This document shows positions 27,171 through 37,914 of a DNA stretch of 64,000 bases, one piece after another. This stretch comes from Planctomycetia bacterium (GTDB lineage Bacteria; Planctomycetota; Planctomycetia; Gemmatales; HRBIN36). The notes below the pieces were generated by a model. It was not told where the DNA came from. It was given only the letters and a program-made list of their open reading frames with translations, and made no database searches. The stretch is taken from assembly GCA_016795155.1 (NCBI GenBank), contig JAEUIE010000050.1:1-64000 (forward strand), read 5' to 3'. Position 1 is the first letter of the stretch; the number at the start of each line of letters is the position of its first letter. Both the position numbers and the translations under genes were made by a program.

Positions 27171-29318
27171 CCAGTGAAAGGCCAGCCCGCGATACCAGTC
27201 TGCACTGGCGCCTAACCAGCGGTTCCAGAACTTGTCTTGATGAAGTATCTGGCTCCATTTTTTCCGCATTAATTGACGGTAATTCTCGTCAGAGTAATCA
27301 ATGGTTCGTGTTGCTGATTCATGATGGATCAGCTTTGCCTGCGGATTGATTATCACCTGATATCCCGCTTGCCTGAGACGCAGGCACAAATCAACGTCGT
27401 TATATGACGTTGGAAAAGTCTCAGTATCCAGACCGCCCTGCTCAAGGTAAAGCGATTTTCTTATGATCATGCAGGCGCCACTCACTGCAGAGACTTCACG
27501 CGAAAGCCTGCTGATTCCCCGATCCAGGCCATCATGCATGATGGCATCAGAAAGGTTCCGGGCCATAGCTTGTGATTCAAGCACGATGCCTGCGTGCTGG
27601 GTTCTGCCATCAGGGTAAATAAGCCAGGCGCCACAAGCCCCCACCTCGGGAAAACTGCACTGACTGACAAGAACATCAAGCCAGTCTGTGGAGAGCACTT
27701 CTACATCATCGTTCAGCAGCAGGAGGTACTCTCCCCGGGCATGCAGGGCAGCTTCGTTATTGAGTTTTGAATGATTGAACGGAATGTCCATCCTGATTAT
27801 CTGGTCCGCTGGACATTGTTCCAGATAATCGAGTGTGTCGCTTTCAGTTGAGCCATTGTCTATCACGATGATTTCATAACGTGGGTATTGCGTAAGACTG
27901 CGAATGCTGTTCAGGCATTTGTAAAGCAGTTCAACATTGTTCCGCGTTGGAATCAGTATGGAAACCAGTGGCTTTTCTGTTTTCTGGTTGACATGATATG
28001 TACAGGCTCGTGGCCCATCTATGATCTCGCATGTCTGGTTTCTTCTTCGAATCGATTCTTCAATAATCTGGCGACCTGTTTCGTGGCATCGTCGATTTAT
28101 TTCAGCTCGCGAGGATAGGCCTCCTGTTCTCCAGTGATAATAGATTCCAGGAACATGAACGACGCGACAGCCGGGCTTATCGGTAATGCGTACTGCCAGT
28201 TCCCAATCCTGCGAGCCATCAAATTCGCTTCGGCACCACTCTTGGTTAACGAAGGCACGGCGATACATGCACAGGTGACCAAAGTACATCATGCCACGCA
28301 GCAGCCAGGGCGACCAACCAGGTTTGAAGAATGGTTCCGATCGCCTGCCACAGGCATCAATACGGTCTTCGTCGGTGTAAAAAACGTCGCCTGATGAGTT
28401 CTGGGCAGCACATGCCAGTGCCTGTAATGCCTGGGGGTGCAATGCATCATCCTGATCCAGGAAGGCGATGTATTCGCCGGTCGCCAGGTTGATGCCAGCA
28501 TTGGTAGCCTGCGATATTCCCTGGTTGTAATCGCTGTTTACCAGTTTGATGTTCGGATATCGATGGGTGAGTTCAGTGAGTTCATCCAAGAGACAGGGAT
28601 TGGCGCTTCCATCATCGCTGATGCACAATTCCCAATGGGAATAGGTCTGCTTTAATACAGAATCAATGGCCTGATGCAGATGATCCAACCGCGGCCTGAA
28701 TATGGGGATGACAATCGAAATGAGTGGCTGTTCGATTGGCATCGGCATTGAATGCAGATCATGTTCACGCAACCAATGCTGGTACTCGCGCTGTGTACCC
28801 GAAAAGTCTGACGATAACTCAGGATCATCCTGCAGAGTAAAGCGGTCAACGATTAATCTTGAAAAATATTGGGCTTGTTGCCCGAATGAGTCGATGGCGC
28901 GAATTTCCAGCGTATACTCGCCATCTTTGAATTGCTTAGGATCAGGGCAAAGTCGAAAGCCCGGTGATTGTTTCTGCTGAAAATGAGGGAATGTTTGAAA
29001 GACATCAGGCCTGGGAATATCGCAAGTGGTTTGAGCGATCAACTGGTTATCCACCCAGCCTTCGATCTTTACAGGGCCAGCGGTGCTTGAATAGGCCCAG
29101 CCCGTGATCGAACCGCAGCCGGTCAAACGCGGTTCACCATCCAAGGCAAGCAGAATGGGTGTCTGGTGAAATTTCCAGCGCCGGTACAAGGCCCTGCTGC
29201 TTCGCCAGGAATGAGACAAGGTCTTGAACAGCTTGCCTGATGGCCTGGCATGAGGATCACTTCCTGCCCAACTGCGATAGAGTTGCCGAACTCCTGATTT
29301 TGCCCACCGGTTGAGCAT
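27162..29318 (-). CDS. Two-domain family 2 glycosyltransferase
   Basis: This 718-residue protein has two GT2 (GT-A) domains in tandem after a N-terminal region of about 200 residues with a beta-rich segment. The first has PLISIVIPIFRPRLDHLHQA, CISDDGSANP and the metal-binding FLDQDDALHP. The second has PLVSILIPTRNNVELLYKCL, VIDNGSTESD and LLLNDDVEVLSTDWL, with a C-terminal MIIRKSLYLEQGGLD and YNDVDLCLRLRQAGYQV. Such proteins build surface polysaccharides by transferring sugars from nucleotide donors. No membrane helices are seen. Its ATG overlaps the stop of the upstream GT2 gene by one base (TGATG). Confidence 0.9.
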   Translation of the reverse strand: MLNRWAKSGVRQLYRSWAGSDPHARPSGKLFKTLSHSWRSSRALYRRWKFHQTPILLALDGEPRLTGCGSITGWAYSSTAGPVKIEGWVDNQLIAQTTCDIPRPDVFQTFPHFQQKQSPGFRLCPDPKQFKDGEYTLEIRAIDSFGQQAQYFSRLIVDRFTLQDDPELSSDFSGTQREYQHWLREHDLHSMPMPIEQPLISIVIPIFRPRLDHLHQAIDSVLKQTYSHWELCISDDGSANPCLLDELTELTHRYPNIKLVNSDYNQGISQATNAGINLATGEYIAFLDQDDALHPQALQALACAAQNSSGDVFYTDEDRIDACGRRSEPFFKPGWSPWLLRGMMYFGHLCMYRRAFVNQEWCRSEFDGSQDWELAVRITDKPGCRVVHVPGIYYHWRTGGLSSRAEINRRCHETGRQIIEESIRRRNQTCEIIDGPRACTYHVNQKTEKPLVSILIPTRNNVELLYKCLNSIRSLTQYPRYEIIVIDNGSTESDTLDYLEQCPADQIIRMDIPFNHSKLNNEAALHARGEYLLLLNDDVEVLSTDWLDVLVSQCSFPEVGACGAWLIYPDGRTQHAGIVLESQAMARNLSDAIMHDGLDRGISRLSREVSAVSGACMIIRKSLYLEQGGLDTETFPTSYNDVDLCLRLRQAGYQVIINPQAKLIHHESATRTIDYSDENYRQLMRKKWSQILHQDKFWNRWLGASADWYRGLAFHWKK

Positions 29319-30295
29319 CAGGCAACCTCGCGCTGATAGCCACGACTGAGTGATTCAAAATGCCACAACCTGGCAAATGGCGTTATCACCACTTGCTTAC
29401 CAGTCTGCCGAACACGTTCGCAGAGAGTAACGTCGTTGTGAGTGATGGGGTAGGCAGGATCAAAACCACCTACCGAATAAAACAGGAACCGTGGTATCAT
29501 CAGGCAGGCGCCGGTGACTGCGGGAACACTGCGGATGCGGCGAAGTTCATGATTTTCACCGGGATAATGATCCGGTTGATGACGGTGAACATGTATCCAT
29601 TCTCCCTGCGGGCCCGTTGGAAACATCCCGGCATGTTGAATGGTTCGGTCAGGATACAACAGCGTTGCACCTGCAATACCAACACGCTGATCGCCTATGA
29701 TTTCCAGCATCGCTTCCAGCCACGCGGGCTGCATGGCCATCACATCATTATTGAGAAACAGAAGAACCGAACGGGTAGAAGCGGTGGCTCCGCTATTGCA
29801 AAGGGTAGAGTAGTTGAAGGGTTGATCTTCACGAATGACTCTGACGTTGCGATTCAGTAAACAGGTTTCGATGAATTTGTGCGTGCGATGTTCTGCACTG
29901 CCATTATCCACCAGGATCAACTCAGCGCGTGGCACCGTGCGATAGAGCGGCAATACGCACCGTTCCAGCAATTCTGGCTGGTCACGAAATGGAATGATAA
30001 TGCTGACATCATCAGCGGTGTAAATCTGATCGGTACGGGGTGAAAAGGCAGTAAAGGGAAGTTGGTCGGAGGGCTTAATAGGAGGTTCGGCCGGCGTTTC
30101 CTCGCGCTTGACACACTTTTTGAGGTTGGAGGTGAGCCGAGTCAGCCCTTGAAAGAGAGGCCACCAGCGTGAGCCTTGAATGGATTTCAGTTCATCCTGA
30201 TATCGTTCTGCCCGGTCGAATTCGTGTTTATAACGCTGGTTCAGTTCATGAACGAGCGTATCAGCATGCATATCTTCGCGACTGCCTTGTCGCAT
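29318..30295 (-). CDS. Family 2 glycosyltransferase
   Basis: From the ATG at 30293-30295 this is a 325-residue protein; a longer frame to 30370 exists. It has a charged coiled-coil-like N-terminus (about 1-60: LVHELNQRYKHEFDRAERYQ) and a single GT2 domain with DVSIIIPFRDQPELLERCVL, LILVDNGSAEHR, the metal-binding LLFLNNDVMAM and a C-terminal ACLMIPRFLFYSVGGFDPAY. It resembles the second domain of its neighbour, so the two genes may come from duplication. It is likely to act with that gene on the same surface glycan, with coupled translation at the TGATG junction. Confidence 0.88.
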   Translation of the reverse strand: MRQGSREDMHADTLVHELNQRYKHEFDRAERYQDELKSIQGSRWWPLFQGLTRLTSNLKKCVKREETPAEPPIKPSDQLPFTAFSPRTDQIYTADDVSIIIPFRDQPELLERCVLPLYRTVPRAELILVDNGSAEHRTHKFIETCLLNRNVRVIREDQPFNYSTLCNSGATASTRSVLLFLNNDVMAMQPAWLEAMLEIIGDQRVGIAGATLLYPDRTIQHAGMFPTGPQGEWIHVHRHQPDHYPGENHELRRIRSVPAVTGACLMIPRFLFYSVGGFDPAYPITHNDVTLCERVRQTGKQVVITPFARLWHFESLSRGYQREVA

Positions 30296-30418
30296 GGCGT
30301 AATTCCTGTCATCCTTAACACAATACCAAGTATGAGGATGGCGAAAGCCAATGTCAAGAGATGCTGGCAATATCTGCCAATCTGATTAAGATTTCTGAGA
30401 CTCGATGGGAGTAATATC

Positions 30419-32305
30419 TTGGCTTCAGCAACACTGTCTCAGAATCTGAAAAAACTCAAGCTACCCTTGGCATTTGGCCTTCTGCGGTTGTGTACCGATG
30501 AGAGTATTTCACGAGACGATGCTGTCACGATCATTCATCGCGCCCTCGATGCAGGCATCAGGTTGATTGATACCGCCGATGCTTATTGTCTGAACCACAA
30601 GGATTTTCATGCCGGTGAACTGCTGGCAAAAGATGCGGTGAATACCTGGAAAGGGCCTCGCAAAGAAGTCATCATTTTCACGAAGGCTGGCATGACCAGG
30701 CCCAAGGGCAAGTGGGTGCCTGATGGCAGTCCGGAGCATCTCAGAAAGACCGTTGATGAAAGCCTGCTCGCTTTGGGTGTTGACCGTATCGACGTATTGC
30801 AACTGCACGTACATGATACCAGGGTGCCTTTTGAAGAAACATTGACGGCGCTGGCGGAACTGCAGAAACAAGGCAAGGTTCATCATCTGGGGTTATGCAA
30901 TACCACGACAGCTGAAATCAAGCAGGCAAGTCGTCACTTTACGGTAGCAGTCATCCAGAATGAACTGAGTGTGTTAGCGAGGAAAAGCGCAACCGATGGC
31001 ACTTTGGCATTTGCACAAGAGCAGGGCATCCCATTCCTGGCCTATCGTCCTCTCGGCGGAATTGCGAAAGTGGAAAAACTGTCGACGAACAAGAGTCTCT
31101 TACCCCTGGCGAAAAAACACCATGTCACACCACAGCAACTGGCGATAGCTGCCGTAGAGCAGGCGGGTGATCTGGTATTTCCATTGATTGGGACGACTCA
31201 GCCCAATCACCTGAAACAGTCTGTTGCATCTCTGCAAATCAAACTGGATAGCGAAGATCGTTCGGTGTTGGATGCCAAATTTTCATTTGCATCAGCCAAT
31301 CCAGCTAAATCAACAGCTTCTGGCAGTTCTGGTGCCGCAAAGAAAAAAGCAGCCAAAGGTGCCGAGGTCGTCATCCTGATGGGTATTCAGGGTGCAGGGA
31401 AATCAGAACTGGTAGCAAGTTATCGAAAGCAGGGTTACGAGCGTTTGAACCGCGATGACGTTGGCGGCAAGCTGGATGACCTGGTGCCTCGGATGGTGGA
31501 GCTGTTGGAGAACGGTAAAACAAAAATCGTTCTGGATAATACTTACCCCACCCGAATGTCACGTGAACCGGTTGTTTCCGCAGCAAGGGAAATGGGAGCA
31601 ACGGTGCGGTGCAGGTTTCTCAATACACCCATTCACGAAGCTAGAATCAATGTTGTCCACCGCATGTTGCAGCGTTATGGTCAGAACCTGGGGCCTGACG
31701 AAATGAAGGCCTATGCCAAAACCGATAACAACCTTCCACCGCCTGCTGCCTTGAAGCGATGGGCAGACAGCTTTGAAATGCCAAACGAAGATGAGGGCTT
31801 TGCCAGTGTGGAGGTGATTCCCTTTACCCGGCGTGCCGACGCAAAACAATCCAAGAAAGGACTTCTCCTCGATGTCGATGGCACCATCAGGATCACCAAG
31901 AGCGGTGAGAAATACCCTCGGCATCCTGATGATGTCGAATTGATACCAGGGCGACGAGAAAAACTGGAGCACTGGATTAAGCAGGACTACCAGCTCTTTT
32001 TTGTCTCCAATCAAAGTGGTGTTGCGTCAGGCAAGGTAGAAAAAGAAGTGGTGGAGGCTGCATTTCAAAAGACGATCAAGCTGCTGGGTTTACCTGTAGT
32101 GGATGTGGCTTATTGCCCTCATCCAGCATTCCCCGTGGGTTGTTTCTGCAGAAAGCCTTTCCCAGGCATGGGTGTTTACCTGATGCAGAAACACCAGTTA
32201 GCTCGCGAACACCTGGTGGTAGTAGGCGATTTGAAGAGTGATGAAGACTTTGCAGCGGGTATCGGTGCACGGTTTGTGCATGCCGATGAATTCTTTTCCA
32301 ACTGA
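30419..32305 (+). CDS. Fusion of aldo-keto reductase, P-loop kinase and HAD phosphatase
   Basis: This 628-residue protein has three enzyme domains. Residues 12-290 are an aldo-keto reductase barrel with the tetrad Asp51, Tyr56, Lys89 and His130. After a short Ser/Lys linker (298-313), a P-loop kinase (316-470) has GIQGAGKS (322-329) and LDNTYPTRMSRE, as in T4 Pnkp-type polynucleotide kinases. Residues 480-628 form a HAD phosphatase with Asp485/Asp487 in LLLDVDGT, VSNQSGVASG, a Zn-site pattern CPHP...CFCRKPFPG (566-582) as in GmhB/HisB, and GDLKSDED. The start is TTG at 30419 behind GGGAG. Kinase-phosphatase order resembles phage polynucleotide kinase-phosphatases; substrate unknown. Confidence 0.88.
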   Translation: MASATLSQNLKKLKLPLAFGLLRLCTDESISRDDAVTIIHRALDAGIRLIDTADAYCLNHKDFHAGELLAKDAVNTWKGPRKEVIIFTKAGMTRPKGKWVPDGSPEHLRKTVDESLLALGVDRIDVLQLHVHDTRVPFEETLTALAELQKQGKVHHLGLCNTTTAEIKQASRHFTVAVIQNELSVLARKSATDGTLAFAQEQGIPFLAYRPLGGIAKVEKLSTNKSLLPLAKKHHVTPQQLAIAAVEQAGDLVFPLIGTTQPNHLKQSVASLQIKLDSEDRSVLDAKFSFASANPAKSTASGSSGAAKKKAAKGAEVVILMGIQGAGKSELVASYRKQGYERLNRDDVGGKLDDLVPRMVELLENGKTKIVLDNTYPTRMSREPVVSAAREMGATVRCRFLNTPIHEARINVVHRMLQRYGQNLGPDEMKAYAKTDNNLPPPAALKRWADSFEMPNEDEGFASVEVIPFTRRADAKQSKKGLLLDVDGTIRITKSGEKYPRHPDDVELIPGRREKLEHWIKQDYQLFFVSNQSGVASGKVEKEVVEAAFQKTIKLLGLPVVDVAYCPHPAFPVGCFCRKPFPGMGVYLMQKHQLAREHLVVVGDLKSDEDFAAGIGARFVHADEFFSN

Positions 32306-33409
32306 TTACTTATCCCGCAAGGCCTGGTAAATAGCAGTACTGATGGCAGCGGGATCGCCATATCCACAGTTAGTCATCACCACAACGCCATGCTTCTGTT
32401 TGGGATAGACCACCAGCCGCGTGGTTGTTTCCCCCTGCTTGCCCCCATGCGATAGCCGTAGGCCATTCTGATCATCTACCCCAAACCCGAGCCCGTGACC
32501 AGTCAGCTTGCCATCGTTGGTTTTCTGCCTGGTGTTCATCATGGAATCGGTGGATGCTGAAATCAATTCCTGGTTTAATACTGCACGAGCCCAGATTGCA
32601 AAGTCTCTGATGTTCGATTTGTATCCACCCGCACCATGCTTCCAATAATGTGCTTCATCACCAAGACGAGTAGGCTTGTCTTCGGCAGTAGCTCGGTTAT
32701 AGCCTGCCGCCCAGTAAGGTTGCTGTTGATACGGCATATCCAACTGAAAGCTTTTCATGCCCAGTGGTTTGATGATGCGTTGGACGAGTTGATCCTGAAT
32801 TGGCTGCTTGCCCGCATTCTGCACCACGGCGCTGGCCAGTATGTAGGCATACGAAGAGTAAAGAAATTTCTCACCTGGCTTATGCAGCAGGGGTGTACGA
32901 TTGAAGACGTTTAGCGAATTGACCGGGTTCAGCAAAGGCAGGGGTGTGTCGTATTTCTTGTTGGTAGGCAGAACTCTTCCATAATGTTGAATCCCACTTT
33001 GATGACACAGCAGATGCCGCATGGTGATGATGCCGTCTTTTTCAGGAAACTCCGGCACATATTTTTTGATATCGCAGTCCAGATCGAGCTTGCCCTTTTC
33101 GACCAGTTGCATGGCAGCCAAAGCGCACAATGGCTTTGAATTGGAAGCCCAGTTGAACACCGTATCAACGGTCACCGGTATCTGCGATTCCCGGTCGGCC
33201 AGGCCAAAGCCTTTCAGGTAAACGATTTCCCCCTTCTGCAGGATGCCGATGGCTACGCCAACCAGTCCCTGTTTCTCGATCTGTGCAATCACTGCTTGAT
33301 CGACTTTTTTAGCTTGCTCTGGTTTAAGACGTTCTTTTGATTGTGCTGGCGAACTTTGAACCTGAATTAAACACAACACAACAATGAAAGCCATCTGAAA
33401 ACGCTTCAC
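32306..33409 (-). CDS. Secreted class C beta-lactamase-fold serine hydrolase
   Basis: This 367-residue protein starts with GTG (33407-33409) behind GGGG and has a signal peptide (about 1-22, MAFIVVLCLIQVQSSPAQ). The serine hydrolase fold shows Ser89-x-x-Lys92 in NWASNSKPL, the second-motif Tyr184 in LYSSYAYILA, and the third motif as SHGGKQGE near the C-terminus. The second motif has Ser in place of the Asn of YxN, and the HGG of the third replaces KTG, as in many esterase- and peptidase-like relatives. It may act as an esterase, D-aminopeptidase or peptidoglycan-related enzyme. The gene meets the end of the fusion gene with no gap. Confidence 0.88.
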   Translation of the reverse strand: MKRFQMAFIVVLCLIQVQSSPAQSKERLKPEQAKKVDQAVIAQIEKQGLVGVAIGILQKGEIVYLKGFGLADRESQIPVTVDTVFNWASNSKPLCALAAMQLVEKGKLDLDCDIKKYVPEFPEKDGIITMRHLLCHQSGIQHYGRVLPTNKKYDTPLPLLNPVNSLNVFNRTPLLHKPGEKFLYSSYAYILASAVVQNAGKQPIQDQLVQRIIKPLGMKSFQLDMPYQQQPYWAAGYNRATAEDKPTRLGDEAHYWKHGAGGYKSNIRDFAIWARAVLNQELISASTDSMMNTRQKTNDGKLTGHGLGFGVDDQNGLRLSHGGKQGETTTRLVVYPKQKHGVVVMTNCGYGDPAAISTAIYQALRDK

Positions 33410-36830: not shown

Positions 36831-37502
36831 TTAGCGGTTGCTGGCAGTACGAATATCATTCAGGCTGCTGAATTCTTCTCGAATATCAGCGCCTGCTTTC
36901 ACCAGTACCGTCTTCGTTTCACTCTGAACTACGCCATCACGAATCACTTCGGCTTTCATGACATAGCGGTATTCCTGGCCGTTATCGAGGTCGGGAGTCA
37001 TGAAAGTACGGATTGATTTATCGATAGTACGTGTCAGTTGGCCATCCACATACAGCTTGGCATCAGCAGGCAAGGAAATGGAAACCTTGGCTGGTGCTGC
37101 TGCATCGGGTTTCTTTTCAGGCTGAGCAGGTGTTTCATAGCTGGGAGTATAGGAGGAGGAGTGAACTGCTCCACCGCAACTGGAACCGCTGCAGCCATAG
37201 CAGCTGTGTCCACCCGTGCAACTACCGGTGTAATAATAGTACGAACCATGGCAACTGCCTGAACAGCTGGAGCCGTAGCAGCTGGAGCCATAGCAGGTGG
37301 AACCGTAGCACGAAGAATAGCCAGAGCAGGAGCCTTGGCAGCTGCCGTAACAACTACTGCCGTAGCATCCGCGACTGCCATAGCAACCGCCTGTGCAACT
37401 GGCGTATGAAGAGCCTTGGCAACCACCGTAACAACTGCGCTTGTGGCAGTCGATGGTGGTAGCTGGTGTGGATAAGGTGGCCATCAAGACCAGACTATAC
37501 AT
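36831..37502 (-). CDS. TIGR03000-type protein with Cys/Gly/Ser/Tyr-rich repeat
   Basis: From the ATG at 37500-37502 (GGAGG six bases upstream) this is a 223-residue exported protein. After a short hydrophobic start, residues about 15-115 consist of imperfect repeats of CYGSSCYGS type, with many Cys and Tyr and almost no charge. The C-terminal 80 residues (KVSISLPADAKLYVDGQLTR, then FMTPDLDNGQEYRYVMKAEV) match the TIGR03000 domain, which I know only from Planctomycetes. The Cys content would allow many disulphide bonds. A role in the cell wall or a surface layer is plausible, but no function is known for the domain. Confidence 0.9.
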   Translation of the reverse strand: MYSLVLMATLSTPATTIDCHKRSCYGGCQGSSYASCTGGCYGSRGCYGSSCYGSCQGSCSGYSSCYGSTCYGSSCYGSSCSGSCHGSYYYYTGSCTGGHSCYGCSGSSCGGAVHSSSYTPSYETPAQPEKKPDAAAPAKVSISLPADAKLYVDGQLTRTIDKSIRTFMTPDLDNGQEYRYVMKAEVIRDGVVQSETKTVLVKAGADIREEFSSLNDIRTASNR

Positions 37503-37914
37503 GTGCATCCTCCAATATCATTCAGCTTGAGGCCCGACGTACCCCGCCGTGTTTCCCCAAACAATCGTTGGTACTCTAGAAATGTTAAATTGGGCAATAT
37601 GGAGTTGCAATTGCTAATTAGCTAATTTAGCTGGATAATGAATCCAGACCTGTCGTAAAAGATGGTACAGCTTAACATCATGCCTGAATTCTGCTTATTG
37701 CATTTTGCGTAAGTCTATTTATTGAAACATGTTGCGAAATAATTGCGTGAACTTTCATACTGTCAAATGTGTCTAATGCATAAAGACTTCGTGACGAAGT
37801 CTTAATGAGTATTGTCATTTGCGTCAATCAATGACTATACTTTGAAGTATCCTCTCTTTGGCATCCTCTCTCTGCCTGACGTTTGAACAACCTGTCTTTT
37901 GCAGAGATGGAGCA
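37503..37914. other. 412-base AT-rich intergenic region
   Basis: No convincing gene is seen here on either strand. It carries the RBS and promoter side of the TIGR03000 gene (minus strand) and of the HAD gene (plus strand). It contains two palindromes: AATTAGCTAATT (37616-37627) and AAGACTTCG-TGA-CGAAGTCTT (37783-37803). It is clearly more AT-rich than the surrounding genes. An open frame from 37858 to the HAD start is an extension of that gene, not a separate one. Confidence 0.7.
37783..37803. promoter_or_regulatory. Perfect 9-base inverted repeat upstream of the HAD gene
   Basis: AAGACTTCG (37783-37791) and CGAAGTCTT (37795-37803) flank TGA. It lies 112 bases upstream of the chosen HAD start and has no T tract, so it is more likely an operator than a terminator. 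No second copy was found in the window. Confidence 0.4.

Follow-up and report, generated by a model that had tools for sequence, protein, structure and literature searches.

An aldo-keto reductase joined to a polynucleotide-kinase-like kinase and a HAD phosphatase in a single bacterial protein: a candidate enzyme for the healing of nucleic-acid ends

Mammalian PNKP (PDB 1yj5, 3zvl, 3u7g) combines a P-loop kinase, marked by NRD, DNT and SR motifs and by an FEPP..EGF..I.F tail, with a HAD phosphatase of the pattern D.DGT..T.SG..(F/Y)P..P.D; in phage T4 Pnkp the kinase precedes the phosphatase. GmhB and HisB-N are HAD-IIIA phosphatases endowed with a CxH..CxC zinc loop followed by RKP, while the Pnkp1/Rnl/Hen1 RNA repair complex is a bacterial end-repair machine combining several activities. 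Finally, jumbo phages encode PNK-HAD proteins, for which a function in RNA repair has been put forward (PMC7824862).

The protein described here, encoded in a stretch of 64,000 nucleotides of planctomycete DNA (the window), joins an aldo-keto reductase (AKR), a kinase and a HAD phosphatase in one chain and has something in common with each of these systems. All the kinase and HAD motifs of mammalian PNKP listed above recur in the fusion, whereas the mammalian enzyme has the reverse domain order and lacks both the AKR and, as seen in the alignment, the C-H..C-C zinc loop. T4 Pnkp has the same kinase-then-phosphatase order, with ~340 columns aligned by Foldseek at roughly 15% identity, but has neither zinc loop nor AKR, and the HAD domain of the fusion falls outside the T4-type family PF25109. 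GmhB and HisB-N share with it the zinc loop, RKP and the fold, but not a fused kinase and AKR, and the fusion HAD remains below the GmhB cut-offs. Pnkp1/Rnl/Hen1, to which the kinase is weakly similar (4xrp, E 2e-4), relies on another phosphatase and other partner enzymes and has no reductase. The free-standing kinase-HADs of 310–340 aa found in huge phages, probably the same family as PNK-HAD, have the same zinc loop, and in named phage records their identity to the window's module reaches 39%; unlike the fusion, they are not accompanied by an AKR in any phage locus examined. As to the reductase, AKR13B2, the pyridoxal reductase PdxI and perakine reductase share the AKR fold and tetrad at 29–32% identity, but are single-domain small-molecule enzymes.

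Neither the individual domain families nor the kinase-HAD module is new; a description of the fusion of this module to an AKR was not found in the openly accessible literature. A carbonyl reductase fused to a 5'-kinase and a 3'-phosphatase would represent a concrete candidate for the direct reversal of 5'-aldehyde ends, a major stable type of end at oxidative and enediyne breaks; should its substrate be different, the family would still pair a redox enzyme with end-healing enzymes in a single conserved chain.

The fusion gene and its three domains

The gene is an uninterrupted frame of 628 codons, running on the + strand from a TTG at 30419 to a stop ending at 32305, and it stands alone, both flanking genes being on the opposite strand. 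Its features are:

29318-30370, strand opposite to the fusion gene: upstream neighbour, a glycosyltransferase
30419..32305, + strand: whole gene, AKR-kinase-HAD fusion of 628 aa, TTG start (ORF, Pfam and AlphaFold2)
30467..31276, + strand: aldo-keto reductase domain, residues 17-286 (Pfam PF00248)
30569, 30584, 30683 and 30806, + strand: codons of the AKR tetrad D51, Y56, K89 and H130 (motif)
31277..31354, + strand: interdomain linker, residues 287-312, of low confidence and differing in length among homologues
31355..31837, + strand: polynucleotide-kinase-like P-loop kinase, residues 313-473 (AAA_33; mouse PNKP best match)
31850..32296, + strand: HAD phosphatase domain, residues 478-626 (PNK3P; mouse PNKP, GmhB and HisB matches)
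32114..32158, + strand: zinc-site loop CPHPAFPVGCFCRKP (C566, H568, C575, C577) of GmhB/HisB type (alignment)
32306-33409, strand opposite to the fusion gene: downstream neighbour, a beta-lactamase-family protein

The sequence-only reading had proposed one 628-residue protein with three intact active sites, and this is borne out by the open frame and by the Pfam domains, which were recovered in the anticipated order and above their gathering scores: Aldo_ket_red at 17-286 (184.3 bits; gathering score of PF00248, 24 bits), AAA_33 at 317-419 (39.7 bits) and PNK3P at 484-626 (40.6 bits; gathering score of PF08645, 22 bits). D51/Y56/K89/H130, GIQGAGKS, LDNTYPTRM, DVDGT and CPHP..CFCRKP are all present. 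AlphaFold2 predicts a well-ordered full chain (pLDDT 91.3, pTM 0.83), in which residues 295-307 of the linker are the sole segment with pLDDT below 50. Elsewhere in the window a 225-aa ORF (36831-37508, − strand) displays an extreme Cys/Gly/Ser/Tyr repeat content (CYGSCxGS-like) and is apparently secreted or structural.

The AKR domain belongs to PF00248 by both score and possession of the Asp-Tyr-Lys-His tetrad. AKR13B2, perakine reductase and pyridoxal reductase are its nearest relatives, the first two also being the top matches by fold, and the equivalog/subfamily cut-offs for pyridoxal reductase are widely missed.

The kinase displays the P-loop GIQGAGKS (322-329), NRD346 with the general-base Asp, DNT373-375, the downstream arginines R382 and R415 and the tail FE.P..DEGF..V..IPF, i.e., the sequence features of a PNKP-type 5'-kinase. 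In a profile search with the kinase-phosphatase module, mouse PNKP ranked first (1.6e-37) with both domains and the kinase tail aligned, GmhB and HisB following it over the HAD portion. The module is predicted with a pLDDT of 95, and its leading Foldseek matches are mouse PNKP (the ssDNA complex among them) and T4 Pnkp, followed by HisB and GmhB; by fold the kinase also resembles PFKFB-type kinase-phosphatases. The kinase is closest to mammalian PNKP, its best matches, by sequence as well as by structure, being to the mouse PNKP kinase. The PNK-3'Pase equivalog TIGR01663 scores 97.7 bits against a cut-off of 502.8, but the domain order represented in this model is the eukaryotic one, and the low score therefore rules out orthology and not kinship. 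Of the initial comparison with phage T4 Pnkp, the domain order stands and the sequence resemblance does not: besides the mammalian affinity of the kinase, the T4-type HAD_PNKP family PF25109 yields no match in the fusion protein at E 0.1. The same family is found, with 168.8 bits, in a genuine T4-type Pnkp neighbouring one of the phage relatives (locus L109).

The HAD domain belongs to PNK3P (PF08645), with both D485 and D487 of the nucleophile motif DVDGT (485-489) in place and a T.SGE.YPR.PDD segment common to PNKP, and it also matches HAD-IIIA families. The suggestion that its metal site is of GmhB/HisB type proved correct in that the C566/H568/C575/C577 loop follows the CxH..CxC pattern of GmhB, whereas the GmhB models TIGR00213, PRK08942 and NF050049 are missed (53.9, 71.8 and 46.4 bits against cut-offs of 149.6, 178 and 250, respectively). 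The domain combines PNKP-like and GmhB-like features.

These affinities bear on an alternative that we regard as rather improbable, namely that the fusion is a small-molecule enzyme whose AKR reduces a sugar, an aldehyde or a pyridoxal-like metabolite, the kinase and HAD domains adding phosphate to, or removing it from, the product or a related metabolite. The proximity of the AKR to AKR13B2 and pyridoxal reductase, the GmhB/HisB-type zinc loop and the PFKFB-like fold of the kinase would suit such an enzyme; yet the resemblance of the kinase to PNKP extends over its whole length, tail included, the GmhB and pyridoxal-reductase cut-offs are missed by far, no metabolic gene neighbourhood is conserved at the chromosomal loci, and the free-standing relatives of the kinase-phosphatase sit in phages among RNA-repair genes. 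An identity as a defence system was also considered and dropped, the PADLOC anti-phage defence models giving no match to the fusion protein at E 0.01.

Distribution, descent and conservation

The kinase-phosphatase module was used to scan GTDB species genomes. Reading the open frames at the resulting 67 loci showed an in-frame AKR at 56; five loci (L057, L073, L077, L085 and L088) are truncated where a contig stops, and the remaining six (L065-L070, five Myxococcota-like and one planctomycete) are free-standing. The fusion is present in Planctomycetota, Myxococcota and Gemmatimonadota and in MAGs labelled Verrucomicrobiota, Lentisphaerota and Gammaproteobacteria. Other genomes of the same family, order and class, as well as other phyla, hold full-length homologues that are ~47–59% identical and alike in domain order. 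Presence is patchy, the module occurring in 10 of the 398 genomes of the window's class. The possibility raised at the outset, that homologues would be separate genes and the present one a joined artefact, is contradicted by Sorangium cellulosum and Nannocystis, whose fusions include some in complete chromosomes. Together with the independent MAGs, these finished genomes rule out an assembly artefact, and chance is likewise excluded.

Against nine free-standing AKRs the fused AKRs form one group (support 94), AKR and kinase distances are correlated (0.93), and on the kinase tree the fused kinases, except for rows truncated by contig ends, lie together, apart from the phage and free-standing myxobacterial proteins. 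These trees would most simply be read as a single fusion whose parts were afterwards inherited together and to some extent spread horizontally. Pairwise dN/dS is mostly 0.04–0.3 in all three domains, with higher values in a few pairs that are either very similar or very divergent, which points to purifying selection on all three.

Among 62 fusions the AKR tetrad is conserved in 60–61, the remaining rows being alignment gaps, and it does not vary in an alignment of 45 sequences; the kinase lysine, NRD, DNT and the two arginines are essentially invariant in the 62 fusions, in agreement with the 45-sequence alignment, S/T at position 329 being the sole variation within the kinase catalytic motifs. 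The HAD domain has had a different fate. In a Myxococcota subgroup (L080-L084, L087 and L089) its DxD motif is lost or altered while AKR and kinase are kept; in the Gemmatimonadota fusions DxD is partly altered, and no Pfam HAD match was obtained at E 0.01 in the sampled members of the nucleophile-loss group L079, L084 and L089. The zinc loop survives this loss: L080-L084, L087 and L089 retain it as CxH..CWC, its four ligands do not vary in the 45 aligned fusions, and H568 and C577 are found in 60 of the 62, nucleophile-less members included, the other two being gaps. AKR and kinase are therefore the conserved core of the protein, the phosphatase being dispensable although its zinc loop stays, and the persistence of the loop in the nucleophile-less subgroup suggests a structural or nucleic-acid-binding role.

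A possible role in the healing of oxidised ends

The reading that we prefer, with less than even confidence, is that the fusion protein heals, within one chain, nucleic-acid ends that oxidation has broken. What speaks for it is the homology to PNKP over both domains, the probable single origin of the fusion and the coupled evolution of its parts. Seen directly are the fused frame and its conservation, the intact catalytic residues and the PNKP-like sequence and fold; the nucleic-acid substrate, the reduction of a carbonyl end and the order of the steps are what we infer. The AKR, using NAD(P)H, would reduce a carbonyl at a strand break, most likely a nucleoside 5'-aldehyde produced by oxidation of the sugar at C5', to be converted to a 5'-OH or, as a second candidate, a 3'-keto end, to be converted to a 3'-OH; the kinase would then phosphorylate the resulting 5'-OH end and the HAD domain strip off the 3'-phosphate, leaving a ligatable 5'-P/3'-OH end that a DNA ligase would seal in the window's organism. 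The 5'-aldehyde is the most economical substrate for the AKR because its reduction yields a 5'-OH, the substrate of the kinase itself. On chemical grounds, reduction would restore a normal terminus only with a nucleoside 5'-aldehyde or a 3'-keto nucleotide; reduced phosphoglycolaldehyde or 3'-unsaturated aldehyde would still block the end, and an abasic site, like a 3'-unsaturated aldehyde, is a less likely target, its reduced product still not being ligatable.

In its most specific form the preferred reading amounts to direct-reversal DNA repair of 5'-aldehyde ends, with the AKR converting 5'-CHO to 5'-OH and handing it over to the kinase and the HAD domain removing the 3'-phosphate; in this precise form we consider it doubtful. 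Oxidation at C5' gives 5'-al-dN as a major product, stable for days (PMC12564780), and at enediyne breaks a 5'-aldehyde is accompanied by a 3'-phosphate or a phosphoglycolate (PMC3825254), end types on which AKR-then-kinase and the HAD domain, respectively, would act. Such a scheme agrees with the conservation of AKR and kinase beside an optional phosphatase. Resolution of the 5'-aldehyde was called "essentially unknown" in a review of 2012 (PMC3825254), and one of 2025 mentions only its non-specific repair in vitro by strand displacement (PMC12564780); a dedicated repair of this end is described in neither of the two.

The loss of the HAD nucleophile in Myxococcota that keep AKR and kinase is what would be expected if AKR-then-kinase were a coupled core, and the invariance of these two domains next to a dispensable phosphatase, combined with the repair character of the kinase-phosphatase relatives, lends support to the proposed role, in which a damaged aldehyde end would be reduced ahead of phosphate exchange. 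Against end-healing counts the fact that the closest AKRs (AKR13B2 and pyridoxal reductase) act on small molecules, and we know of no AKR acting on a polymer end.

AKRs commonly reduce reactive aldehydes, and the AKR of the fusion could merely clear free ones (base propenals, methylglyoxal or sugar fragments) arising from the same damage whose ends the kinase-phosphatase heals, the fusion serving co-expression instead of hand-over. Such a division of labour would agree with this usual activity and with the intact state of all the active sites, but fusion is seldom needed for co-expression, and a single fusion origin kept across phyla suggests that physical coupling matters; we hold it to be very unlikely.

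DNA or RNA: sealing enzymes and phage relatives

In addition to LigA and RtcB, the genome of the window's organism (97% complete) encodes two ATP-dependent DNA ligases, one of them next to Ku; neither PF09414 nor PF09511 RNA ligases were detected in it. RtcB joins 3'-phosphate or cyclic-phosphate ends to a 5'-OH, that is, it seals the very ends that a PNKP would convert, so that 5'-P/3'-OH ends would here go to a DNA ligase; because a DNA ligase would seal the product ends of the enzyme, DNA is more likely than RNA to be the substrate in this organism. Other observations argue against healing of DNA ends. No operon partner is conserved beyond close relatives, as judged by clustering the genes around the chromosomal fusion loci, so that the fusion is not linked to DNA repair by its genomic surroundings; the company of Ku is inconsistent, with 15 of the 44 genomes searched encoding it versus 22 of the 298 from the window's class, a comparison confounded by phylum; a PF09414 RNA ligase scores above cut-off in 20 of 40 fusion-bearing genomes; and the phage relatives look like RNA repair.

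Indeed, huge phages carry free-standing kinase-phosphatases of the same family with an identical type of zinc loop, and the PNK-HAD proteins assigned to RNA repair (PMC7824862) are likely to belong to it. The alternative thus suggested is repair of RNA, the kinase-phosphatase healing RNA cleaved by ribonucleases so that an ATP-grasp RNA ligase can seal it, and the AKR either handling an oxidised RNA end or acting as an NADPH-bound redox sensor that gates repair, as in Kv-beta. Besides the published assignment, it draws on the presence of a PF09414 RNA ligase in 27 of the 33 phage records with a kinase-phosphatase and on one group of related phages in which a T4-type Pnkp, two RNA ligases (Rnl1/Rnl2-type) and RlaP cluster around the gene. 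A general proximity of RNA ligases to the phage genes is weak, with 8 of 25 lying within 10 kb against 4.3 expected, an excess that is not significant and is phylogenetically clustered. Furthermore, the other 20 of the 40 fusion genomes, like the window's own, have no PF09414 match above cut-off, and a pure sensor would have no need for an invariant catalytic tetrad. On balance we find RNA repair by the fusion unlikely.

Some minor observations concern the phage loci. In three of ~12 kb (L107, L109 and L116) the zinc-loop kinase-HAD coexists with a separate T4-type Pnkp and two RNA ligases, implying that the two are non-redundant end-healing enzymes. On the kinase tree a planctomycete free-standing kinase-phosphatase (L070 / L020) groups with the phage proteins and is possibly phage-derived. 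A protein with PARP-catalytic and WGR domains, unusual in phages, is encoded within 6 kb of several huge-phage kinase-phosphatases (L140:2667-3956 and ORFs in L094, L114 and L129/L138), and genes for NADAR (L091:7040-7516), NAD synthetase (L090:7898-9577) and CinA/PncC (L098:5340-5888) lie near others, which hints at a neighbourhood devoted to NAD-linked repair or counter-defence.
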